A stretch of DNA of 53,188 nucleotides from an uncultured Fimbriimonadales bacterium (GTDB taxonomy: Bacteria; Armatimonadota; Fimbriimonadia; Fimbriimonadales; GBS-DC). Position numbers and translations under genes: made by a program. The first letter of the stretch is position 1. Each line of letters starts with the position of its first letter. Positions 2-53,188 of this stretch are shown here, in pieces. The DNA is taken from NCBI GenBank assembly GCA_937992175.1, contig CALKLF010000031.1, forward strand, positions 1 through 53,188, read 5' to 3'. Below the pieces are notes generated by a model that worked only from the letters and a program-made list of their open reading frames with translations, had not been told where the DNA came from and ran no database searches.

Positions 2-259
2 ACGCCGACACGCCTGCCCCAACCCCTCACGAACTCTCCCACGCCAGCAACGCCAGCAACGCCTGCCACACCAACCGTCCTCACAGAAACACGCTCCCAC
101 GCCGATGCGCCCGATCCCACAATCCTATCTGCTTCTCACCCGCTGCTCCCAACACCAACGCCAGCAGCAGTCCCAGAGCCTACACCCGCCCCGCCGAAAA
201 CACACGCTCCTTGCCCGCACTCGCCTACCCGCCGCGTGTTCTTTTGTGAGGGGTTATGA
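2..259 (+). CDS. C-terminal part of a Pro/Thr-rich protein (5' end outside window)
   Basis: The frame beginning at base 2 is open to a TGA at 257-259. It encodes an 85-residue tail with PTP/ATP-type repeats (for example NSPTPATPATPATPT and LLPTPTPAAVPEPTPAPP), followed by a short basic and Cys-containing end (RRVFFCEGL). Low-complexity Pro/Thr stretches usually act as extended linkers in envelope or secreted proteins; the function of this gene cannot be told from the tail. The stop overlaps the next start as ATGA (256-259), which suggests translational coupling and supports this frame over the competing frames. Other open frames across this stretch look like shadows. Confidence 0.5.
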   Translation, partial: TPTRLPQPLTNSPTPATPATPATPTVLTETRSHADAPDPTILSASHPLLPTPTPAAVPEPTPAPPKTHAPCPHSPTRRVFFCEGL

Positions 260-561
260 AGCCACCGAAAGCGCCAGTGCGGACCGTCTTCGCGCCACCA
301 TCGATTGGCACGCTGCCCATCCGCCTGCAATACCCGCCCGCGTGGGATCGGGCGCTGAGCGTGCAAATGGAGCGCCAGCGCATCCGGCTGTTCATTGAGC
401 CACGCCTTACCTGCCAAATGCTCGTTCGTGTGCGCCTGTCGGACACGCCCGAAGTGCGCGCGGTGCTGGCGGAAGCGCTCAGTGTGCGCATCAACGGCGT
501 CATCAGCGAAGCGCACCGTATTCGAGGGTGTTCGAAAAATCGGGGGGGCGTCAGCGTTTGA
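256..561 (+). CDS. Small protein of unknown function, 3' end replaced by a MITE-like insertion
   Basis: The frame codes for 101 residues. It starts at an ATG overlapping the upstream stop and preceded by GAGGGG. The first 86 residues look like ordinary coding sequence (MKPPKAPVRTVF..., then QRIRLFIEPRLTCQ and PEVRAVLAEALSVRINGV). The last 12 residues are read from the inserted element at 524-671, and the TGA at 559-561 lies inside it. Removing 157 bp (element plus one copy of the 9-bp target duplication) joins this frame without a stop to the LuxR-type gene downstream, giving one 235-residue ORF ending at 1120. The present gene may therefore be a truncated remnant. I do not recognise a family. 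Confidence 0.45.
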   Translation: MKPPKAPVRTVFAPPSIGTLPIRLQYPPAWDRALSVQMERQRIRLFIEPRLTCQMLVRVRLSDTPEVRAVLAEALSVRINGVISEAHRIRGCSKNRGGVSV

Positions 562-671
562 GATGCCTCGCTCCGCTCGGCATGACAAGGGGCATTCGGG
601 GCGCAACCCCTGTCATTCCGAGTCCCAGGCGAGGAATCTCTACCCACTCGAAGCGTTTTTCGAACACCCTC
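524..671. mobile_element. MITE-like element with 16-bp terminal inverted repeats
   Basis: GAGGGTGTTCGAAAAA at 524-539 is the exact reverse complement of TTTTTCGAACACCCTC at 656-671. The 9-mer ACCGTATTC lies directly outside both ends (515-523 and 672-680), as expected for a target-site duplication; it becomes CACCGTATTC if the terminal C is assigned to the target instead. The 148-bp interior has no ORF of its own but carries one copy of the GTCATTCCGAG palindromic pair (560-587 and 611-640). No transposase is encoded, so it would need one supplied in trans. Confidence 0.75.
560..640. repeat. GTCATTCCGAG palindromic pair, copy 1 (inside the MITE-like element)
   Basis: Left arm GAGATGCCTCGC...GGCATGACA at 560-587; right arm TGTCATTCCGAG...GCGAGGAATCTC at 611-640. 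The arms are imperfect inverted copies separated by a short spacer that itself pairs (GGGG...CCCC). The family recurs at 18051-18133 and 41093-41169. Confidence 0.8.
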
Positions 672-760: not shown

Positions 761-1120
761 ATGCGAACGGTAAAGGTGATCATCTTGGCGCGAGACGAGA
801 TGGTGGCTGCGTTCCTGCGCGAAAGGATTGGCGCTATCCGTCCGATAGAAGTGGTGACGAGCGATACAGTGGATGCTGATGCAATCGTAGCCGACGGGGG
901 GCTATTGACCTTCAGCGAGCGGCGCGTGCTGCGGGTGTGTCAGCACCACGATTGCCTGAGCGATGTGGCGGATGCGCTTTGCATTAGGCGCGACACGGTC
1001 AAGAAGCACTTGGTGCGCATATATCGGAAGTTGGAGGTGAATAGCCTGCATCGGGCGTTGCTGCGCGCGAAGGAGCTGGGACTGCTGGACGAGCAGAGGG
1101 AGGGCAGAGGAGACTTATAA
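761..1120 (+). CDS. LuxR-type helix-turn-helix protein
   Basis: 119 residues. The C-terminal half is a LuxR/GerE-type DNA-binding domain: LTFSERRVLRVC, then the recognition-helix region IRRDTVKKHLVRIYRKL, then VNSLHRALLRAKELGLL. The N-terminal half (MRTVKVIILARD...) resembles the first strand and helix of a response-regulator receiver domain. It is far too short for one, and I see no acidic pocket, phosphoacceptor Asp or Lys, so phosphorylation control is unlikely. ATG 761 has AGGGGGC just upstream. The frame is also open upstream through the MITE-like element; before that insertion it was probably continuous with the gene starting at 256. Targets are unknown. Confidence 0.65.
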   Translation: MRTVKVIILARDEMVAAFLRERIGAIRPIEVVTSDTVDADAIVADGGLLTFSERRVLRVCQHHDCLSDVADALCIRRDTVKKHLVRIYRKLEVNSLHRALLRAKELGLLDEQREGRGDL

Positions 1121-1234: not shown

Positions 1235-1990
1235 ATGAAGCGGATAGGTGGCGTAGGAATAGGGGTGCTTCGCAGCATGCGCGTGGGATGGCTGCTGCTA
1301 ACTCTTCTGCCGGGCATCCTCTGGGCGCAAGGTAGACCCAACATCGTATGGATGGCAGGAGGACACAGTTGGAGTGTTTATTCGGTGTCGTTTTCGCCCG
1401 ATGGTTCGTTGTTGGCGTCGGGGAGTGATGATGGCACCATCAAGTTGTGGCGTGTGTCGGATGGGGCGTTGCTGCAGACCTATGACGAGGAAACAGGCAC
1501 AGGGGTCTTATCCATCCAGTTCTCGCCTGATGGTCGGCTTTTCGGCTACGGGCGATATGATGCGACGGTGGTGGTGGCACGGAATCCGGGCGTCGAGGAT
1601 CGCTATCCGCCTGATACAATAATTGTGGGGGGTCCCGAGGAGCGCGCCTTGGTGTGTCGTGAGCCGGTGCGCTTCCGCTGGACAGGCACCGATGACGCCA
1701 CTGCGCCTCAAGATCTCTACTTCCGCTGGCGACTGGATGAAGGCGACTGGAGCAACTGGTCGCGCAACACCAGTGTTAATCTGACAGGGTTGAGCGACGG
1801 CGAACATACATTTGAGGTGCAGGCGCGCGATTTGGCGGAGCGCATCGATGAGACGCCTGCAACGCGCACCTTCCGCTTCCGCAACGATCCCAACCCGCCA
1901 CAAATCAGCAATGTACGAGTCGATGCGCAAGTGGACCGCGCCGTCATCCAGTTCTCGAGTACCGCGAGTCTTTCGATATTGACATTGTAA
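1235..1990 (+). CDS. Secreted WD40 protein, chimeric and truncated
   Basis: 251 residues. A signal-type N terminus (VGWLLLTLLPGILWAQ) is followed by about two WD40 blades (HSWSVYSVSFSPDGSLLASG, DGTIKLWRVSDGALLQTY, VLSIQFSPDGRLFGYG), far short of a seven-blade propeller. At base 1595 the sequence switches to a segment about 95% identical in DNA to 2771-3128 of the next gene, encoding a DRYPPDTIIV...ALVCREPVRFRW beta-sandwich domain and the start of an FnIII-like domain. Homology stops at 1952 and the frame ends in a short random-looking tail (SSTASLSILTL). I infer a recombination product between a WD40 gene and a copy of the giant gene's domain. It may be expressed, since it has a promoter and RBS, but is probably not a complete functional protein. 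Confidence 0.6.
   Translation: MKRIGGVGIGVLRSMRVGWLLLTLLPGILWAQGRPNIVWMAGGHSWSVYSVSFSPDGSLLASGSDDGTIKLWRVSDGALLQTYDEETGTGVLSIQFSPDGRLFGYGRYDATVVVARNPGVEDRYPPDTIIVGGPEERALVCREPVRFRWTGTDDATAPQDLYFRWRLDEGDWSNWSRNTSVNLTGLSDGEHTFEVQARDLAERIDETPATRTFRFRNDPNPPQISNVRVDAQVDRAVIQFSSTASLSILTL
1595..1952 (+). repeat. 358-bp duplicated segment, upstream copy
   Basis: Aligned without gaps to 2771-3128 at a constant offset of 1,176 bases; I count roughly 16 mismatches, mostly at third codon positions. Both copies are read in the same phase. It encodes one beta-sandwich domain and the start of an FnIII-like domain. Confidence 0.85.
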
Positions 1991-2079
1991 TGGTCAATCA
2001 GAGGGGCGAATGGAAATGGGAACGATTCATCCTCTATGGTATGGGAAAACGTGCCTTTGAACAGGCAAACAAGTCTTGA
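1957..2079 (+). pseudogene. Orphan C-terminal remnant of an unidentified gene
   Basis: Immediately after the duplicated segment ends, a different frame is open to a TGA at 2077-2079. It reads like genuine protein (EYRESFDIDIVMVNQRG, then EWKWERFILYGMGKRAFEQA). It has no start or promoter. It is best explained as the surviving 3' end of a gene whose 5' part was replaced in the recombination that produced the WD40 chimera. The family is not recognised. Confidence 0.35.
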
Positions 2080-2101
2080 TCCAGAGGTAGGAGGTCTCAT
2101 C

Positions 2102-5100
2102 ATGCAGGCGAGAACGGTACTGATAGGGTTTTTGCTGTTTTTGGCGACAATAGTGTCCAGTTGGGCACAGCAATGTTCGCGTCAGTGTCCGCTATGGGAT
2201 GAAGATATTGGTTCCATTATTCTTAGTGGCAATGATGACGGTTCGGTAGGGCCGATACAATTACCATTTCCTGTGCCTGTATATGGCAACACATACACCC
2301 AATTTTGGATCAACAATAACGGGAATGTCACTTTCACAGGTCCTCTTTCCACGTATACAGCTTTTGCATTTCCGAACAATCGGGGCATCGTGATTGTGGC
2401 TCCCTTCTTTGCGGATGTGGATACGCGCCCAGCTGCGAGCGGCAAGGTGCACTATAAAGCCACCAACGATTATGTCGTCATCACTTGGAACAATGTTGGG
2501 TATTACAATAACCGTACTGACAAACTCAACCGATTCCAGCTTATCATTACGCGCGATGGCTACGCAGGATTCTCCTATGCGAACATGGAGTGGACAACAG
2601 GTGATGCGAGTGGTGGATCAGGGGGTTTTGGCGGCTCGCCTGCGCGTGCGGGTTTTGATGCTGGCAATGGGAGAGATGCACTGGTGTTTTGGGAGGGGAA
2701 CACGCAGCAGTCCCTACAGCTGTTGTGCTGTCGCACATTCTGGTACAACTTGCGTACAGGACTTCCTACGGAGGATCGCTATCCGCCTGATACAATAATT
2801 GTGGAAGGTCCCGAGGAGGGCGCCTTGGTGTGTCGTGAGCCGGTGCGCTTCCGCTGGACAGGCACTGATGACGCCACTGCGCCTCAAGATCTCTACTTCC
2901 GCTGGCGATTGGACGGCGGCGACTGGAGCAACTGGTCGCGCAACACCAGTGTTAATCTGACAGGGTTGAGCGACGGTGAACATACATTTGAGGTGCAGGC
3001 GCGCGATTTGGCGGAGCGCATCGATGAGACGCCTGCAACGCGCACCTTCCGCTTCCGCAATGATCCGAATCCACCGCAAATTAGCAATGTGCGCGTCGAT
3101 GCGCAAGTGGACCGCGCCGTCATCCAGTGGACGACCGATGAGCCGAGCACCAGTCAGGTAGAGTACCGCCTGCAGGGCGCGAGCAGCTGGCAGCGCACCA
3201 ACTTGGATACAAACTTGGTCACGGAGCACACGGTTACGATTACGGGGCTACAGGGTCATCAGACCTATGAGTATCGTGTGTTGTCGCGAGATGAGTGCGG
3301 CAACGAGGCGGTTTCGGGGATTGGAACATTCATTGTGCGCGCGGCGGATCTGCGCCCGATAGCGCTGCAGCTTCCGTCTGAATTTTGGCACAGGATTCCG
3401 TTTGAGGTCTCTTGGCAGATTAAAAACGAAGGCACTCTTGTAGCGTCTGACTGGATAGATCGGCTCTATTTCTCGCGCGACGACCAGCTGGATAGTTCTG
3501 ATAGATTTGTAGGAGACTATGGGTACGCAGGTCTGCTGGAGCCTGGACAATCCGTTACTCGTGCGCAAAACATCACGATTCCTCGCGCATGGATTGATGA
3601 GGAGGGTACTTACTATATCATTGTCGTAGTTGATGCTACTAATCGAGTGGATGAGGGCGTGCGTGAAGAGAATAATACTTTAGCGCGTTCGTTTACAGCG
3701 CGTGATACGATTCCTCCTACTGTATCCATCACGCGCGCTCCTGCGGAGGGCGCTTTAGTCTGTACGCTGCCGGTCGAGTTTGCTTGGCAGGGGAGCGATG
3801 ACTACACGCCTGCTGACCAGCTGCAGTATCGGTATCGGGTGAACGGCGGTGCGTGGACGGCGTGGAGTAACGAAACGCAGGTCAGCTTGACCAACCTGCC
3901 GCAGGGTGTGGCTGTGTTTGAGGTGCAGGCGCGCGATCGGCGCGAGAACGAGTCCCAAGTCGCGCGACGCTCGTTCCGCGTAGATACCCAGCCGCCCGTG
4001 ATTACCGCCTTGCGCACGGAGAACCTGCGTCCTATTAGTGTAGAGGTGGTGTTCGCGACCGATGAGCGTTCTACCTCGCGCGTGGAATATAAGCGCAGCG
4101 ACGAGACTGAGTGGCGCAGTGTGAACGCCAGCACAACTTTGCGGACCACCCACCGCGCGTTGCTTGCCAATTTACAAGCCGATAGTGAGTATCAGTATCG
4201 TGCGATTGTGCGCGACGAGTGTGGGCACGAGAATGTGTCGTCCACGCAGACTTTCCGCACTCCTGCAGGCGCAGATCTCGTCGTGTCGGCTGCCAACGCG
4301 CCTACACAGGCAACTGCGAACACCCCCTTCAACTTCAGCTGGACAGTGCGCAATCAGGGTGCGCTACGGGCTTCGCAAGCGTGGATAGACCGCGTCTACC
4401 TGTCACAGGACAGCACGCTGGGCAACGACGATCGGCTGCTGGCAGAGCGCGGTTACAACGCGGGACTGGACGCGGGGCGAGAGGTTGCCCGCAATGCAGC
4501 GATTGTTATTCCTGCCGATGTTGCAACTGGCGACTACTACTTGATTGTGTTCACAGACGCCCTGAATGCTGTGTCCGAGACCGACGAGAGCAACAATACT
4601 CGCGCAGTCGCTGTGCGCGTGCAGGCAGTCGATAACCCACCCGACACGGAGATCACGGAAGGTCCTGACGAGGGCGGGATAGCCTGCAGCCTGCCGATTA
4701 TCATCCGTTGGCGTGGTAGCGACGCCGAGACGCCTGCGGATCAGCTGCAATTCTCGTATCGCTTGGACAACCAGCCGTGGTCGGACTGGACAAACGACAC
4801 TGAGATTACGCTGAATGAGCTAAGCGATGGGGCGCATGTGTTTATGGTACGGGCGCGCGACGGCGCCGGTCAGGCTGATGCAACGCCTGCAATCCGCCGC
4901 TTCTATGTGGGAGTGAACCCGCCGCAGATAAGCAGCCCGCGTGCGCAGGTGCAGCAGGCTTCGGTTGTGATTAGCTGGGGCACGAACATCCCTGCGACCT
5001 CGCAGGTCGAGTACGGTACGACGCCCGCACTGGGGCAGAGCAGCCCGCAAGATAGCCAACTCAAACAAAATCATAGCGTCGTCCTGCGCGGGCTCCAACC

Positions 5101-8100
5101 GAACACCACTTACTACTACCGCGTGAAATCCGTTTCTGCCTGTGGCGTGGAATCGGTGTCGGAACTGTTCACCTTCCGTACAGGCAACATTCCTGACCTC
5201 ACCATCGAGCCTGTGCAAATCCCCAACGAGATGGGCACGTGGCAGACTTACATCTTCCAGTGGCGCGTGCATAACAACGGGCAGGGGGATGCCGTCGGCG
5301 AATGGTTCGATGGGTTCTACCTCTCGTCGGATGAGCAGTTGGACGCCAACGATCGGCTCATCCGCTGGGTTCGACGCCCTGCGAATCTGCGCAGCGGCAC
5401 GAACTACCTGAACGCTGCAGAGCTACGCATCCCCACTATCGAGCCTGGCGCATACTATGTAATCCTCATCGTTGACCCGCGCAATGCCATCCACGAAAGC
5501 GATGAGAACAACAATGTCGCGGTCTACGGACCCGTGCAGATTGTGCGCACAGACGCGCCCGTAATCGCAGAGATTGACGACGCAACAGCGGAGGAAGGCG
5601 TCGCCTACCGCGGCCCCACGCCCCAGCTGATCCAAGGCACGCCACCCATTCGCTGGAGCTTGCAGAGCGGACCGCCAGGCATGGTAATCGACTCGAACGG
5701 TCAAGTCTCGTGGGCGCGTCCTGTAGGCAATGTCCAGCCGTATGCGATCACTATCAAAGCGGAGAACGCCGCGGGCTCGGATACCGAGACTTGGTTGCTC
5801 ACGGTAGCACCGACTTATCGTGCGGAAGCACAAACCGACGCGGAAGTCGTCGTGGCAGGTACCCCTGTGACGATTACGGGGCGTGCGATTTCGCTAGCGA
5901 CAGGGCAACCACGTCCCAACTCACCTGTGAAGGTGCGACTGCGTATTCGCGGGCTGGAGCGCACGCTGGACGCTGTAACGAACGCTCAGGGCGAGTTCAG
6001 GGTGATCTATGTATCACTGCCGCGCGAGGCGGGGCAGGTGGAGCTCTGCGCAACGCATCCTGGCGATAACCGCTTTGAGGCGCAAGATCGCTTCACGCTG
6101 ATAGCGATGTATTATGAACCTGAGCGTACACAACACGACCTCATCCCGTTCACTGACTACGAGTTCACAACGGTCTTGCGTAATGCGGGTGACACGCCGC
6201 TTGGAGGCATTCAGTACGAGATTCTGAACCAACCGACAGAGTTGTTCGCGCAGGTTCAGGGTCCCAGTACGCTGGAGGGACTGGGGGCGGGCGAGGTACG
6301 CTTGCGCGTGCGCGCCGAGACGCAGCGCGATTTGCGGGGCACGCTCGTGGTGCGGGCATACAACGCGCAAGGCGTGCAGGCGCAGTGGGCGCTTCAACTG
6401 AGTATCCGTGCGCCGCGCCCCGTGCTTACTATTACGCCGAACCAATTAAAGGCAGCGATGCTGCGTGGGGATCAAACGCTGGTGAGTTTTACTGTACGCA
6501 ATGACGGCGGCGCACCAACCGACCCGATGCGTGTTGCCCTGCCGAATGCCCCGTGGCTGAACTTGACCACGAACGAGGTGATTCCGCCGCTCGCGCCCGG
6601 CGCAGAAGCCGTGGTGACGCTCCAACTTACGCCAGCTCCTGACCTACCTTTGGGTCCCTACAACGGAACCATTGTTGTCGGGCAGGGACTGTACTATGGC
6701 GTTGCCGTCCCCTTCCGCTTCAACTGCGTCTCGAATCGCAAAGGCGACCTCGCGGTTCGCGTGGAGGATGAGGCAACCTACTGGGGTTTGGACGGCAACG
6801 AGAACCCGAACCGCCCGTTGGTGCGTAATGCAATTGTGCAACTGCGCCACCCAGAAACGAATGTGCTGCTCTACGAAGCTGTTACTGAGAGTGAAAATGA
6901 GCCTCTGCTGATTCGCGACCTGACCGAGGGCTACTACACATTAGTCGTGCAAGCGCCGCAGCATGCCACTTACCGTCAAACTTGGCTGGTGGAAGGCGAT
7001 CGCGTCACGGAAGTGCGTGCGTTCATCCCGCGTGAGGTCATCCGCTATCGGTGGAGCGTGCGCCCGACCGACATCCCCGATGTAACCATCATAACGCTGG
7101 AAGCGGTCTTTGAAACCTATGTGCCGCAGCCTGTGGTGACCGTGAACCCGCCGTTAGTGGACTTGTCTCAGATAGAAGAGTCTGCACAAATTGACTTCGT
7201 AGTGGAAAACCAAGGTCTTGTGAAGGCGGAGAATGTGGAGTTGGAGCTGCCGTCGCATCCCAACTGGCGGTTCACGCTGCTAACCGATCAGATTGGCGAC
7301 CTGCAGCCGCGTGAGCGACGAGTCGTGCCCGTTCTGGTGGAGCGAGTTGAAGACGGCGGTTCCCTAAGCAATCCGCCGTGCACCATCGTGTCGGGTGTGC
7401 GTTGGGAGCTCGTGTGCTTCGACCGTAAGTACTATCGTGTGCCAATCGTGTGGGTAAAGGCGTATGGTAACTGCATCGGTGGCATCACTGGCTGGGGTGG
7501 AGGTGCGTCGGGCGGTATAGGCGGCGGCGGCGGCGGTTGGGGCAGCGGTGGCGGTACAGGCGGTGGAGCAGGTAACCCTTACTTCTATCCGCCCTCGTTC
7601 GAACCACCTCAAGAGTGTGAGCCGTGTGACCCTGCGAATTTCGAACCATCCCAGCTCGCCTGCTCTCGAGTAGACATCGGGCAGCTAACAGGACATGCTT
7701 TGAACGCTATGATAACGGCGCTTACGCAGGGCTGGGTTGGCGTGGAGAGCAATGATACAGAAACCTTCGCGCAGCTGTGCTTGCAGACCTGCTGCAACTC
7801 GGATGGGTCGATTGGTATTGCAGGGCGTGCTAGCGCAGGCTTCAGTATCCCGCTCAAGCTCAACAGAACCTCCGTGAGTGTTGATCTGAGTAATATCGAT
7901 TTGGAGCCAATCGAAGTGGATCTGCCTGATATAGGTCTGTGTAGAGTCGAACTAAACCTCTCTGGGAACGCAGAGATTGGAGTGATGGTTTCGGGGAACC
8001 TATCTGGGTCGGCATCGTACACACGCGGATGTGATGTAGGATGCGAGAACAATGTGCCTACCCTGCAAGCGCAAGGTAATGCTTCCCTAACGATCACTGG

Positions 8101-11100
8101 AGGCGGACGAGCTCAGGTTGAGGGAACTGCCAGTTTACAATGTCTCGGAACCCAGATAAGAAGTGTCCAAGTAACGGGCACTGCGACGGCAGTTGTCCAG
8201 ACAGGTGCAAGCTTAGGGTTCACCTACGACGACTGTAAGGGGCTTCGTCTGCTTAGGTGCTTTGAGGGAATCTTCGCCGAGTTCGAGTTGAGTCTTAAGC
8301 TAAGATATAGATTGGGCAATGAGGAGCAGGAGGTCGTTCTGGGCATTCCGTGTACGCGCTACTATTTCGTCTGCCCTGTCGGCAACAATGACGACTGTGC
8401 TCCCCCTAATGACTGCACCAACTTCGGATGTGGCGACTACTTCGGTCAGGGTGGGCTTATGATGGACATTGGCGATCTGTCAGGGCAGATAGAGCAAGCG
8501 TTGCGTTCGTCGTTGTCGCCGTACCTCTATCGCTACAAGATGACGCCCGTCTCTAACATGGAGCGCTACTTGGTAGGCGAAGATGGCGACTTTCAGCCTG
8601 CAGATGGCGAAGAGGGAGTCTGCGCTCGTGTGCGCGTGCAACTCCAACAACAAGTGGTGCTATCGCGTCAAGCGTTCAACGCGGAGTTGGAGATAGCGAA
8701 CCCTTCGGACGCTGAAAATGTGAGCGGGGTGCTGGCGTTCTTTGACATTTACGACGCGGAAGGCAACCTCGCCAGCGACAAGTTCGCTATCTACCCACCT
8801 ACCCTGCGCAACATCAACGCCATTGATGGAACAGGAGTAATCGCCCCTGACACGATAGCCACAATCAACTGGATTATCGTACCACGAAAAACCGCTGCAC
8901 CGCAGGAGACCACCCGCTACTATGTGAGTGGTGTGTTGGTCTACACGGTAGCAGGTACGACCTACACAGTGCCACTTCTGCCTGCGCCCATCGATGTGCA
9001 GCCCGATCCTACCTTGGAGCTGGACTACTTCTGGCAGCGCGATGTGTTCGCAGACGACCCGTTCACGCCGGAGGTGGAGCCATCCGAGCCGTTCTCACTC
9101 GGTCTGCGCATGATGAACACGGGCTTTGGCACGGCGCGGAATGTACGCGTGATCTCAGGACAGCCGCGCATCGTGGAAAACGAGCGCAACCTGCCTATCG
9201 AGTTCCGCATCATCGGCTCGCAGGTGAACGACCAGCCAATTACTCCGTCTCTAACGGTGAATCTGGGCGATTTGCCGCCACAATCGACGGCAGTTGCCCG
9301 CTGGCTGATGATTTCTAACTTCCAAGGGCGGTTCGTGGGGTTCAATGCGACCTACCGCCATGTGAACCCGCTGAACGACGACAGCCTCTCGCTCATCGAC
9401 CGTGTGGACATTCACGAGCTCGATCATGTTGTGCGTATCCTGCACCCGCAAGATGACCGCAAACCCGACTTTCTGGTGAACGCCACGCCTGACCCGCAGT
9501 ATCTCCCTGATGTGGTGTTCAACAGCACGGGCGAGGTACACCCTGTGCAGGCGCGCTTGGATGGTACCGTGGATGGTCCAATCAACAACGCACGGCTGCA
9601 AACGCGCTTGACTGTCTCAAACCCGCCCCAAGGGTTTGTCTATATCCGTATTCCTGATCCATCGGGGGGACAGCATCCCTTGCTGCGCGTGGTACGCTCA
9701 GACGGGCGCGAGATACTGATGGAGTCAAACGCTTGGACGACGCACCGCGTGCGCCGACCTGCAGGGGGCTCGCCCTACCGCGAAGACCTTGTGCACATTT
9801 TCGACCACGATAGCACGGGGGTCTATACGCTGATTTACGGGTATCGCCACCCCGTAAATGTGGATGCAGGCGAGACGAAGCTGCAGCGCGATGGTGTTGA
9901 GGTGCGGATGGGCGGGACAACTGGACTGGTCGTGACGGCTGTGTTCCCCGACAGTATCTATGTGCAGTCCCATGACCGCAGCGCGGGTATTCGCGTGACG
10001 AATGTGCGCGCACGCGAGGGCGACTGGCTGCGGATTCGCGGTACTCTGCTTACTGCTGAGAACGGCGAGCGGTATGTAGAGGCGCGAGAGACGGTCAAGG
10101 TCGGCGAGGGCATGCTCGATCCGCTCGGAATGACCATCCGCACCCTCTATTGTGGCGATTTCCACTTCAATCCGGCTACAGGCGAAGGGCAGCGCGGCAT
10201 GGCGGGCGGCGCAGGGCTGAATGTGATTGGCTTGCTCGTGCAGGTTAGCGGTGTGGTCTCCTCCACAGCAACGGACCACTTTCTCATGGTTGACGGCGAT
10301 GGTCGTGCTGTGAAAGTGTGGCTCACGCCAGGCATGGTCGCGCCGCCTGCGGGTGCGCTTGCGCGTGTAACAGGCATTGTCTCACCCCAGCGCATTGGTA
10401 ACGATCTGTACCCGACAATCCGTGTCCGCCGCCCAGAGGATGTCCAAGCACCACTGGAGCCTCTGCCGATTCACTCGCCTGCCACTGTAATCCGCAGCGG
10501 CTGGAACCAGTTCACTTTAGGCGGCGTGCCCGCGAATCCGAACCCGCTTAGCGTGCTAAGCAACTTCGACACAGGCGACGGTTTAGCGAACCGATTGCGT
10601 CGCTTCGAGCCGCTCAGCCAGCAGTGGCTCACCTGGGATCCGAACGCGCCGCAACGATTCGGTGGGCTACTGGTGGGTGAGGGCTATCAGCTACAATCTG
10701 CCAATAGCCTGCCCATCCAGTTCGAGGGCGTGCCGTTTAACGCCATTGATATCTGGCTGAGCCTGCCGCGTCAGGGCTACACTGTCGTGGGACATCCCTT
10801 CGATGCACCTGTGCCGTGGGAGACCGTGAAGGTGGTGGACGGCTTGCAAGCGCTGAATATGTTCACGGCGGCGCGAGTGCAGTCGCCTCCGTGGCTCGAT
10901 TCCAGAGCCACCTACTTTGATAACTTGAGCCAGACATCTCGCACGATGGGGTTGCCCACGGACAATCCCGACAGCGTGCTGATGGAGCCTTGGCTTGGCT
11001 ACCGCGTAGAAACCTTCCGCGACCAGTTAGCACTAATCGTCTCTAATCGTGCCCCAGTTGCCGTGGATGATGAGGCAGCGACAGAGATCGGAACGCCTGT

Positions 11101-11761
11101 CGAAGTGTTGGTGCTGGAGAACGACCGCTCGCCTGTGAACCGCTCTCTTAGCATCGTTGGGTGGACCCAAGGGCAGCATGGCACGGTTTCGCAACTGAGC
11201 GAGAGTGTGCTGGTCTATACGCCCAACTCTGGCTATGCTGGTCTAGACTCGTTCACCTACACTATAGCGGATAGCGACGGGTTCCGCGCTACGGCGACCG
11301 TCTACATCTGCGTCGGGCGTGTGACGCTCACAGGAATCGTACGGCTGAACACGCCTGTGTACGACCTCAACACCCGCTTGATATCCGTGCAAGTAGGGCG
11401 TGCGCCTGTCCAGCAGGTTACGCTTCAGGGCAGTGGACGTGAGGGTACCTTCACCCTGCGCGTGCCCGCATTTGGCGAATATGTGGTGAAAGTGAAGCCT
11501 CATGGTGCGCTCCAGCAGACGCGCACTGTGCGTCCTGAAGGAATCGACTTGACCGTGCGCTTTGATGGCGCGGGTGCAGGCTTGCCACTTGGTGATGCGA
11601 ACGGCGACAACTTCATCGATGACGCCGACCTGCTTGAGGTTCTCTTCCAGTTTGGTCAGACTGGATCGAATTTGAGCGGCGATCTAGACGGCAGCGGCGT
11701 GGTTGATGATGCTGACCTACTCATCGTGTTGTTCAACTTCGGCTTGTACGGTAATCCCTAA
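2102..11761 (+). CDS. Giant secreted multidomain protein (NIDO, FnIII-like, CARDB, Big_9, dockerin)
   Basis: 3,219 residues. ATG 2102 is chosen because AGGAGG lies 7 bases upstream and a signal peptide follows (VLIGFLLFLATIVSSWAQ). Visible order, approximate residues: NIDO-like domain 32-219 (APFFADVDTR); then a three-domain module repeated three times from about 229, 538 and 846, each with a beta-sandwich (E/D-G...CxxPV), an FnIII-like domain (PPxI...TSxVEY) and a CARDB domain (ending DExNNT or DENNNV); a putative Ig-like domain 1151-1239; a Big/CarboxypepD-like domain 1240-1332; further CARDB-like stretches; a Gly-rich linker 1795-1825; a Cys-containing region; two OB-like segments around 2600-2780; a cadherin-like Big_9 domain about 2982-3068; and a C-terminal dockerin-type EF-hand pair (DANGDNFIDDADLL, DLDGSGVVDDADLL). 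Probably a cell-surface or matrix adhesin. No sortase signal is seen. Several Cys residues could form disulphides. Confidence 0.85.
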   Translation: MQARTVLIGFLLFLATIVSSWAQQCSRQCPLWDEDIGSIILSGNDDGSVGPIQLPFPVPVYGNTYTQFWINNNGNVTFTGPLSTYTAFAFPNNRGIVIVAPFFADVDTRPAASGKVHYKATNDYVVITWNNVGYYNNRTDKLNRFQLIITRDGYAGFSYANMEWTTGDASGGSGGFGGSPARAGFDAGNGRDALVFWEGNTQQSLQLLCCRTFWYNLRTGLPTEDRYPPDTIIVEGPEEGALVCREPVRFRWTGTDDATAPQDLYFRWRLDGGDWSNWSRNTSVNLTGLSDGEHTFEVQARDLAERIDETPATRTFRFRNDPNPPQISNVRVDAQVDRAVIQWTTDEPSTSQVEYRLQGASSWQRTNLDTNLVTEHTVTITGLQGHQTYEYRVLSRDECGNEAVSGIGTFIVRAADLRPIALQLPSEFWHRIPFEVSWQIKNEGTLVASDWIDRLYFSRDDQLDSSDRFVGDYGYAGLLEPGQSVTRAQNITIPRAWIDEEGTYYIIVVVDATNRVDEGVREENNTLARSFTARDTIPPTVSITRAPAEGALVCTLPVEFAWQGSDDYTPADQLQYRYRVNGGAWTAWSNETQVSLTNLPQGVAVFEVQARDRRENESQVARRSFRVDTQPPVITALRTENLRPISVEVVFATDERSTSRVEYKRSDETEWRSVNASTTLRTTHRALLANLQADSEYQYRAIVRDECGHENVSSTQTFRTPAGADLVVSAANAPTQATANTPFNFSWTVRNQGALRASQAWIDRVYLSQDSTLGNDDRLLAERGYNAGLDAGREVARNAAIVIPADVATGDYYLIVFTDALNAVSETDESNNTRAVAVRVQAVDNPPDTEITEGPDEGGIACSLPIIIRWRGSDAETPADQLQFSYRLDNQPWSDWTNDTEITLNELSDGAHVFMVRARDGAGQADATPAIRRFYVGVNPPQISSPRAQVQQASVVISWGTNIPATSQVEYGTTPALGQSSPQDSQLKQNHSVVLRGLQPNTTYYYRVKSVSACGVESVSELFTFRTGNIPDLTIEPVQIPNEMGTWQTYIFQWRVHNNGQGDAVGEWFDGFYLSSDEQLDANDRLIRWVRRPANLRSGTNYLNAAELRIPTIEPGAYYVILIVDPRNAIHESDENNNVAVYGPVQIVRTDAPVIAEIDDATAEEGVAYRGPTPQLIQGTPPIRWSLQSGPPGMVIDSNGQVSWARPVGNVQPYAITIKAENAAGSDTETWLLTVAPTYRAEAQTDAEVVVAGTPVTITGRAISLATGQPRPNSPVKVRLRIRGLERTLDAVTNAQGEFRVIYVSLPREAGQVELCATHPGDNRFEAQDRFTLIAMYYEPERTQHDLIPFTDYEFTTVLRNAGDTPLGGIQYEILNQPTELFAQVQGPSTLEGLGAGEVRLRVRAETQRDLRGTLVVRAYNAQGVQAQWALQLSIRAPRPVLTITPNQLKAAMLRGDQTLVSFTVRNDGGAPTDPMRVALPNAPWLNLTTNEVIPPLAPGAEAVVTLQLTPAPDLPLGPYNGTIVVGQGLYYGVAVPFRFNCVSNRKGDLAVRVEDEATYWGLDGNENPNRPLVRNAIVQLRHPETNVLLYEAVTESENEPLLIRDLTEGYYTLVVQAPQHATYRQTWLVEGDRVTEVRAFIPREVIRYRWSVRPTDIPDVTIITLEAVFETYVPQPVVTVNPPLVDLSQIEESAQIDFVVENQGLVKAENVELELPSHPNWRFTLLTDQIGDLQPRERRVVPVLVERVEDGGSLSNPPCTIVSGVRWELVCFDRKYYRVPIVWVKAYGNCIGGITGWGGGASGGIGGGGGGWGSGGGTGGGAGNPYFYPPSFEPPQECEPCDPANFEPSQLACSRVDIGQLTGHALNAMITALTQGWVGVESNDTETFAQLCLQTCCNSDGSIGIAGRASAGFSIPLKLNRTSVSVDLSNIDLEPIEVDLPDIGLCRVELNLSGNAEIGVMVSGNLSGSASYTRGCDVGCENNVPTLQAQGNASLTITGGGRAQVEGTASLQCLGTQIRSVQVTGTATAVVQTGASLGFTYDDCKGLRLLRCFEGIFAEFELSLKLRYRLGNEEQEVVLGIPCTRYYFVCPVGNNDDCAPPNDCTNFGCGDYFGQGGLMMDIGDLSGQIEQALRSSLSPYLYRYKMTPVSNMERYLVGEDGDFQPADGEEGVCARVRVQLQQQVVLSRQAFNAELEIANPSDAENVSGVLAFFDIYDAEGNLASDKFAIYPPTLRNINAIDGTGVIAPDTIATINWIIVPRKTAAPQETTRYYVSGVLVYTVAGTTYTVPLLPAPIDVQPDPTLELDYFWQRDVFADDPFTPEVEPSEPFSLGLRMMNTGFGTARNVRVISGQPRIVENERNLPIEFRIIGSQVNDQPITPSLTVNLGDLPPQSTAVARWLMISNFQGRFVGFNATYRHVNPLNDDSLSLIDRVDIHELDHVVRILHPQDDRKPDFLVNATPDPQYLPDVVFNSTGEVHPVQARLDGTVDGPINNARLQTRLTVSNPPQGFVYIRIPDPSGGQHPLLRVVRSDGREILMESNAWTTHRVRRPAGGSPYREDLVHIFDHDSTGVYTLIYGYRHPVNVDAGETKLQRDGVEVRMGGTTGLVVTAVFPDSIYVQSHDRSAGIRVTNVRAREGDWLRIRGTLLTAENGERYVEARETVKVGEGMLDPLGMTIRTLYCGDFHFNPATGEGQRGMAGGAGLNVIGLLVQVSGVVSSTATDHFLMVDGDGRAVKVWLTPGMVAPPAGALARVTGIVSPQRIGNDLYPTIRVRRPEDVQAPLEPLPIHSPATVIRSGWNQFTLGGVPANPNPLSVLSNFDTGDGLANRLRRFEPLSQQWLTWDPNAPQRFGGLLVGEGYQLQSANSLPIQFEGVPFNAIDIWLSLPRQGYTVVGHPFDAPVPWETVKVVDGLQALNMFTAARVQSPPWLDSRATYFDNLSQTSRTMGLPTDNPDSVLMEPWLGYRVETFRDQLALIVSNRAPVAVDDEAATEIGTPVEVLVLENDRSPVNRSLSIVGWTQGQHGTVSQLSESVLVYTPNSGYAGLDSFTYTIADSDGFRATATVYICVGRVTLTGIVRLNTPVYDLNTRLISVQVGRAPVQQVTLQGSGREGTFTLRVPAFGEYVVKVKPHGALQQTRTVRPEGIDLTVRFDGAGAGLPLGDANGDNFIDDADLLEVLFQFGQTGSNLSGDLDGSGVVDDADLLIVLFNFGLYGNP
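2771..3128 (+). repeat. 358-bp duplicated segment, downstream copy
   Basis: The partner of 1595-1952. It lies inside the giant gene and encodes the first beta-sandwich domain plus the start of the first FnIII-like domain. It is in context with related but divergent copies downstream, so this is probably the source copy. Confidence 0.85.
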
Positions 11762-18050: not shown

Positions 18051-18133
18051 GAGATTCCTCGCCTACGACTCGGAATGACAACTATAGTCTAGGCGCCAAC
18101 AGCCCTGTCATTCCGAGCGAAGCGAGGAATCTC
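18051..18133. repeat. GTCATTCCGAG palindromic pair, copy 2
   Basis: Left arm GAGATTCCTCGC...CGGAATGACA (18051-18080) and right arm TGTCATTCCGAGC...CGAGGAATCTC (18106-18133) are inverted copies around a 25-base spacer. No long terminal repeats like those of the 524-671 element are present. Confidence 0.85.
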
Positions 18134-41080: not shown

Positions 41081-41450
41081 CGGTAGTTCTTTGAGATTCC
41101 TCGCCTTCAGCTCGGAATGACAATTACTGCATGTGCAAATTTGTCATTCCGAGCCGAAGGCGAGGAATCGACTCTGTTAGCAAAAATCTCTACTGCATCC
41201 CCTCTTCAGTTATAATACCGATCGGGGTTTCAAGCGAGACAAAAGCGGACGGAGCAGAAGGGGTATGCGCCTGTTTGCCCTCACTCCCTCTTCCGCCACG
41301 CGGAAGAGGGGGGAACTCGCGATGCAGCGCACGCGCTATGCTTCCCTCTCCCACGCTGTGGGCTTACTGCATGACAGTTTTTTGGACGCCCGAAAAAAAA
41401 AACGGTTCATCGGCTTGGGGTATCCTCTACCCCAGTGAGGTAGCAACCGA
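41081..41450. other. Intergenic region with repeats before the IS remnant
   Basis: It holds palindromic pair copy 3 (41093-41169), a CTCTTCCGC/GCGGAAGAG hairpin around 41284-41306, and the start of the IS end structure (41403-41458). No gene is seen. Confidence 0.6.
41093..41169. repeat. GTCATTCCGAG palindromic pair, copy 3
   Basis: Left arm GAGATTCCTCGCC...CGGAATGACAA (41093-41123) and right arm TTGTCATTCCGAGC...GCGAGGAATC (41141-41169), inverted around a 17-base spacer, 12 bases past the previous stop. Confidence 0.85.
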
Positions 41451-52211: not shown

Positions 52212-53188
52212 ATGCGATACCAACGCCTGAGTGTGACAGTAATCGCCGCCGTGCTGAGCCTTGCGCTGCTGGCGGGGCTGAGCCTGCCCTGCCACGCGCA
52301 GGAGACCCCCAACCCGCCTGCCGAACAACAACAGCGACCTGAACCCCCCCAACACCAGGACGCCCCCGCCCCCGAACCCCATCCAGACCTCAAACCACTG
52401 GTGGACGCTCTGCTGGAACTCATAAACGAACGCAAGCTCACCGAGGCGCTGCAACAAGCCGACGCCCTGCTCCAACAGGCGACCGAGAAAAGCGACAAAG
52501 TTGGGCAGGCGTATGCGCATCGGTTTCGGGCGTGGGCGTTGCAGCAGCAGAACCGCGTAGACGCAGCGTTGCCTGCGTGGGAGCAGGCGGAGCGGCTCTG
52601 GCGCGAGGTGGGGGATGGGGCGTTTCTTGTGGAGGCGTTGCTGGGGCGGGCGTTTTGCCTGTGGCGCACGGACGAGGCGGGGGCGAGGGCGTTGGTGGAG
52701 CAAGCGTTGGCGTTGGCGAAAGCCGAGGCGCGCCGTCCGCTTGCTGCAGCGAAGGCGTTGGGCAATCTGGGCGCTACTTGGTATAACGCAGGCGTTCTGA
52801 TAGTGGCTCAGCAGTGCTATGAGCAGGCGTTGGCGCTTTTTGAACGCCTCGCCCCCAACTCGCTGCAGGTGGCACGCACGCTGAACAATCTGGGGGGTGT
52901 GGCTTATAATCGGGGCGACTTGGCGGGGGCGCAGGGGTATTATGAGCGGGCGTTGTCCATCTATGAACGACTCGCCCCCAACTCGCTGCAGGTGGCAACC
53001 ACGCTGAACAATCTGGGGGCTGTGGCTTCTGATCGGGGCGACTTGGCGGGGGCGCAGGGGTATTATGAGCGGGCGTTGGCGATTTTTGAACGCCTCGCCC
53101 CCAACTCGCTGGATGTGGCACGCACGCTGCACAATCTGGGGGGTGTGGCTTATAATCGGGGCGACTTGGCGGGGGCGCAGGGGTATTA
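52212..53188 (+). CDS. Secreted TPR-repeat protein, truncated by window edge
   Basis: The frame is open from ATG 52212 to the last base (325 codons so far). A signal peptide (TVIAAVLSLALLAGLSLPCHAQ) is followed by a Pro/Gln-rich linker (about 31-57) and helical repeats. From about residue 170 these are clear tetratricopeptide repeats of the kinesin-light-chain type with a 41-residue period (LAPNSLQVARTLNNLGGVAYNRGDLAGAQGYYERAL), close to the 42-residue TPR_10/12 pattern. The domain that usually follows such arrays (CHAT or another effector) would lie beyond the window. Probably a protein-interaction scaffold outside the cytoplasm. Confidence 0.85.
   Translation, partial: MRYQRLSVTVIAAVLSLALLAGLSLPCHAQETPNPPAEQQQRPEPPQHQDAPAPEPHPDLKPLVDALLELINERKLTEALQQADALLQQATEKSDKVGQAYAHRFRAWALQQQNRVDAALPAWEQAERLWREVGDGAFLVEALLGRAFCLWRTDEAGARALVEQALALAKAEARRPLAAAKALGNLGATWYNAGVLIVAQQCYEQALALFERLAPNSLQVARTLNNLGGVAYNRGDLAGAQGYYERALSIYERLAPNSLQVATTLNNLGAVASDRGDLAGAQGYYERALAIFERLAPNSLDVARTLHNLGGVAYNRGDLAGAQGY
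52848..53188 (+). repeat. 123-bp tandem coding repeats in the TPR gene
   Basis: The unit starting CTCGCCCCCAACTCGCTG begins at 52848, 52971 and 53094, exactly 123 bp apart, with only scattered changes. It continues past the window edge. The near-identity in DNA indicates recent unit duplication or conversion. Confidence 0.9.

Follow-up and report, generated by a model that had tools for sequence, protein, structure and literature searches.

A short mobile element with IS5-like ends around a palindrome, from a family probably inserted by preference at the upstream edge of predicted promoters, in an uncultured Fimbriimonadales bacterium

The 53,188-nucleotide stretch analyzed here (the window; contig CALKLF010000031.1 of assembly GCA_937992175.1) carries near its start a 148-bp segment that a sequence-only reading described as MITE-like, which raises the questions of whether the segment is mobile DNA, what would move it, where it inserts and how a palindrome that occurs elsewhere without such ends came to lie inside it. 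The 16-bp ends were confirmed as perfect reverse complements and the 9-bp duplication was found on both flanks, as that reading had held. The features of the locus are as follows, with G000 denoting the genome of the window, other G numbers its relatives, and C numbers contigs.

256 to 561, plus strand: open reading frame truncated inside the MITE by a TGA at 559-561, with an in-phase continuation downstream once the element is removed
515 to 523, no strand: left copy of the 9-bp target duplication, ACCGTATTC
524 to 671, no strand: MITE, 148 bp, non-coding, with IS5-like ends around an apparently captured palindrome; about 20 near-identical copies in its own genome
524 to 539, plus strand: left terminal inverted repeat, GAGGGTGTTCGAAAAA, the same sequence as at both ends of a 1026-bp insertion sequence (IS) in G004
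560 to 640, no strand: apparently captured dispersed palindrome, GAGATGCCTCGC...GTCATTCCGAG...GCGAGGAATCTC, with solo copies in G000 and in relatives without the MITE ends
656 to 671, minus strand: right terminal inverted repeat (TTTTTCGAACACCCTC), the exact reverse complement of the left
672 to 680, no strand: right copy of the target duplication, ACCGTATTC; the empty site in G009:C34 is ungapped here
761 to 1120, plus strand: downstream frame with a GerE/LuxR-type helix-turn-helix domain (PF00196, E 1.5e-6)

The two ends are the sole matches with no more than 3 mismatches in the 53-kb window, where 0.22 would be expected by chance. The element between them contains no transposase gene and is crossed only by host frames and chance frames; an Rfam search of the window returned only a tRNA, and a plasmid collection searched at the DNA level gave no match to the element. 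Its inner palindrome pair consists of GTCATGCCGAG (576-586, minus strand, one mismatch) and GTCATTCCGAG (612-622), and as a single strand the whole element is predicted to fold into a near-complete long hairpin (z = -6.6 versus shuffles). The window also contains repeats of other kinds, including a 300-bp direct repeat with 96% identity (1595-1894 and 2771-3070) in the initial part of the long frames 1235-1990 and 2036-11761 and, at 52805-53188, 123-bp tandem repeats that run up to the contig end and are apparently coding.

The element is recently active, gene-less mobile DNA of this hot-spring bacterium. The search for further copies with these ends yielded many at a spacing of about 146 bp in its own genome, a 94%-complete draft that is broken at these repeats: there were 48 end matches at no more than 2 mismatches, against 0 for a reversed control pattern, and a search with the whole element found about 24 places with 91 to 100% identity, many of them truncated by contig ends, as would be expected of repeats that break an assembly. 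Some 20 near-identical insertions exist besides the window copy. Relative to the 146-bp consensus, most copies have 0 or 1 base changed, so the burst was recent; the window copy, with 10 differences, is older. Pairing of left and right ends on the 9 bases just outside them, with agreement at 8 or 9 of these taken as one insertion, gave nine distinct insertions where about 0.025 chance pairs are expected; this figure and the empty control together reject a chance origin of the ends and copies. The duplications lie within contigs in C31, C26, C62 and C75 and across contig ends in five cases (C34/C1, C36/C70, C78/C121, C80/C113 and C109/C54), and each of these five contig pairs can be joined across the MITE by its matching 9-bp duplication. 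A duplication length of 9 bp holds for these nine insertions and for several in relatives. In addition, a copy in C9 has a near-matching duplication that differs in G-run length, and a 264-bp copy in C75 contains additional palindrome sequence inside the same ends.

An empty site, which the earlier reading had proposed to look for in relatives, is present in G009:C34, where both flanks of the window element are contiguous and ungapped (...CAGCGAAACGCGCCGCCTTCAAACGGTCTC); the corresponding arrangement in the window is CAGCGAAGCGCACCGTATTC, the element, then ACCGTATTCAAACGGTCTC. When the element and one copy of the duplication are removed by script, a single frame stays open for about 235 codons and continues in phase into the luxR-type frame, whereas the upstream frame as it now stands ends within the element at 561. 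The frames 256-561 and 761-1120 may once have been a single gene. The insertion in the window is older and off target, and it breaks up an open reading frame.

The search for a full-length insertion sequence with the same ends was also positive. An intact 1026-bp element with 18-bp ends was found in G004 (C2:253849-254874), the Fimbriimonadales metagenome assembly KatS3mg016, which has long contigs; the MITE matches it at 18 of 18 bases on the left and 16 of 16 on the right. The element encodes a frame of 377 amino acids with a DDE_Tnp_1 domain (PF01609, 33.9 bits against a Pfam cut-off of 23). Against the NCBIfam IS5 model the transposase scored 33.6 bits, far below the curated cut-off of 140, so the parent is filed only as IS5-like, on a distant branch. 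The closest named match found was ISAae1 of Aquifex aeolicus, an IS5-like element with a DDE_Tnp_1 transposase (31% identity over 66% of the query) and a similar end, GAGCCTGTTGAAAAAATC; the 9-bp duplication and the promoter-edge target described below set the parent apart from IS5-like insertion sequences. The window's own 94%-complete draft yielded no intact transposase, only decayed or contig-end fragments (a decayed 990-bp copy in C67 and fragments in C84, C28 and C24). Parts of the 1595-3070 repeat region of the window recur beside the decayed copy in C67 (L044, 4354-5159). Ends of this type occur in most genomes of the family and are essentially absent from the order's other families searched.

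The MITE-like reading is thus supported by the copies, the full-length IS and the empty site. That the locus is ordinary conserved DNA or an assembly artefact has a negligible probability: many copies do lie at contig ends, but others lie within contigs with perfect duplications, the same structure recurs in independent assemblies including the long contigs of G004, and ordinary conservation is contradicted by the empty site in G009. More had been left open about the interior, for which the sequence-only reading offered either a mobilizable palindrome family or capture by a transposon. Its observation that the palindromic pair stands alone elsewhere in the window was borne out, GTCATTCCGAG occurring at 10124, 18069/18107 and 41111/41143 with no such ends nearby, and the palindrome occurs many times in G001, a genome without these ends. 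In sister genomes the same ends and 9-bp duplications enclose other palindromes, which vary by genome: CAGACACGCAGGTCTGCCCCTACA in G004 and G006, GGGAACCCCCTCCTGCAGGTTCCCCC and another in G009, G003 and G011, GACGGCTGAAGCCGTTCC in G012 and CGGGCGTCCCGCC in G013. Nothing in G000 matches the G004 interior, parts of which are present in G008 and G010. Since the palindrome occurs without the ends in its own genome and in G001, and other palindromes occur within the same ends, the palindromes are best regarded as independent repeats that were captured; of the two offered readings, capture fits better, given solo palindromes and exchanged interiors. The greater spread of the palindrome relative to the MITE could suggest that the palindrome family is itself the mobile unit and acquired its ends by chance, but this is very improbable, as unrelated palindromes carry the same ends and duplications, copies are bounded exactly at the ends, and the ends match those of a transposase-encoding IS. 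The ends therefore act as an interchangeable shell around palindromes. Solo palindrome copies of the GTCATTCCGAG / GAGGAATCTC type, also lacking transposon ends, span 41093-41169 and 18051-18117 of the window.

The flanks of the collected copies point to a sharply defined target, which the sequence-only reading had no means of seeing. Of the 188 flanks of all fetched ends, 63 had GTCA at -13 to -10, against no more than 8 at any other offset; in the outward direction this gives TTGAC with its start 8 bp from the element. Merging of similar flanks left 181 independent ones, and in 51 of these TTGAC began exactly 8 bp beyond the element's end, compared with 8 flanks at the next offset and no more than 3 elsewhere within 30 bp; in the window's own genome it stood at this offset in 11 of the 36 ends examined. 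Since only one of an element's two ends adjoins the -35 box after the duplication, the 51 flanks among 181 stand for about half of the insertions; of the insertions with clean duplications, about half, the window copy included, have no adjoining -35 box. A -10-like hexamer (at least 5 of 6 positions) followed at a spacer of 17 to 19 bp in 31 of the 51 TTGAC flanks, with the consensus CCCCTTGACAA...TGGTATAAT. In 450 kb of the same genome, a small and mostly coding sample from which the genome-wide background was estimated, such a hexamer followed TTGAC at 6 of 50 intergenic sites and 5 of 474 coding sites; the element-side value before merging (35 of 57) differs from the intergenic background with a Fisher p of about 1e-7, and the excess persists among sites with equal numbers of C's before TTGAC. 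The 9-bp duplication abuts the -35 box of intact, predicted sigma70-type promoters. Tolerance of intergenic insertions could account for part of the promoter excess but would not explain why it is precise to a single base. At several loci (L241, L254, L255, L259 and L260) the predicted promoters of the family share an extended form, CCCTTGACAAACG...TGTGGTATAMT, that is nearly identical at unrelated loci in several species. A literature search for promoter-targeting insertion sequences, with most subscription journals outside its reach, returned nothing specific, and we know of no description of insertion at one exact distance before gene start signals for this type of bacterial transposon.

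One target is shared between genomes. At the same position of a cytochrome-oxidase promoter there is a MITE in G000 (C109/C54, with TTGCCCCCT on both sides) and a full IS in G004, and element remnants lie nearby in G006 and G011. The promoter is free of the element in six relatives (G007, G002, G012, G008, G010 and G001), so it predates the insertions. In 12 places two elements lie 8 to 10 bp apart, a spacing expected if a site rebuilt by the duplication is struck again. Several elements that have a promoter pointing outward at either side show no matching duplication, among them the IS in G004; these are best explained by a presumed deletion or inversion between two copies at neighboring divergent promoters. 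The two 9-mers that flank the IS copy at 640-1661 of L220 (G014:C17), AGGGAGTAA and TTACTCCCT, are exact reverse complements of each other, a pattern that inversion between neighboring copies would produce by flipping a shared duplication.

Taken as a whole, the element is very probably a MITE with IS5-like ends and a captured palindrome that is moved in trans and whose family prefers the upstream edge of sigma70-type promoters. An IS5-like (DDE_Tnp_1) transposase of Fimbriimonadales would act in trans on the 16- to 18-bp ends and insert the element through a 9-bp staggered cut, enzymatic steps that we infer from the ends and duplications seen in the sequence. The duplication would comprise the 8 bp before the -35 box and its first T (NNNNCCCCT/TGACA), with the -10 box 17 to 19 bp further on. 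The promoter core would then be kept whole and the target site rebuilt after each insertion, so that repeated landings could build arrays of elements in tandem, 9 bp apart; the copy in the window is one of those that landed off target, inside an open reading frame. The ends, duplications, copies, empty site, parent element and target statistics are established by the sequences, and mobilization in trans, a role for RNA polymerase and activity of the promoters are presumed.

How such a target would be recognized allows two readings. There is about an even chance that the transposase reads plain DNA sequence, such as CCCCTTGACA, and that promoters are struck for no other reason than that this string forms their -35 region. 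The sharpness of the motif is consistent with this, as are the occurrence of CCCC before TTGAC at background promoters too and the presence of a -10 box at 5 of 8 background CCCCTTGAC sites. Yet where fewer than three C's precede TTGAC, a -10 box is present at 5 of 20 element-side sites versus 5 of 486 in the mostly coding background, and non-consensus -35 boxes (TTGCCA, TTGCAT and TTGCGC) with a strong -10 are also struck. Guidance of insertion by promoter-bound RNA polymerase, or by a DNA shape imposed just upstream of the -35 box, is possible at somewhat lower probability. In its favor are the enrichment of the whole promoter, including a -10 box at a spacer of 17 to 19, beyond the -35 motif, and the constant spacing between element and promoter core; a similar picture could arise from a bipartite sequence preference or from selection for harmless sites. 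The background being small and mostly coding, sequence reading and polymerase guidance are inseparable here. A broader proposal, which we put forward only tentatively, is that this DDE lineage and its MITEs recognize working promoters, probably through the bound RNA polymerase, and so use a safe site that stays intact and is regenerated, while the shell takes up host palindromes.

Safe-site targeting is well known in some eukaryotic retrotransposons and in Tn7-type elements. For Ty3, which integrates at Pol III promoters at a fixed distance from the core, the Pol III machinery provides the guidance; the fixed distance is shared, whereas Ty3 is a eukaryotic retrotransposon and guidance in the present case is a hypothesis. 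The MITEs of Haloquadratum walsbyi resemble the present element in that their ends and duplication length match a transposon to which their interior is unrelated (PMC3119063), and mobility was inferred for them even without a functional transposase copy being found (PMC3119063). The difference is that the interior in the present case belongs to a separate family of dispersed palindromes, which varies by genome, and that the target is a promoter edge. The Correia/NEMIS elements (CREE) of Neisseria are likewise short, non-coding and mobile, with inverted ends and a bearing on promoters. Their target duplications resemble the -10 box (PMC9330008, PMC2229807), their target is of the TA type and they may form fusion promoters, in contrast to the complete promoter kept here 8 bp outside the element. 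Palindrome-associated elements of the IS605 type (PATEs), defined as having neither terminal inverted repeats nor a target duplication (PMC3119063), were rejected as an assignment, the perfect inverted ends and 9-bp duplications being present.

A recently active MITE is a known kind of thing, and this one is confirmed as real. What is new is that the palindromes inside the ends are interchangeable and, chiefly, that insertion favors the upstream edge of promoters with single-base precision. If this preference is true, insertion at one exact pre-promoter position by a simple DDE insertion sequence and its MITEs would represent a new, testable mode of targeting, and host promoters could repeatedly gain new upstream DNA. 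The swapping of interiors inside constant ends would offer a concrete route for the spread of widespread bacterial palindromes whose mobility is unexplained.
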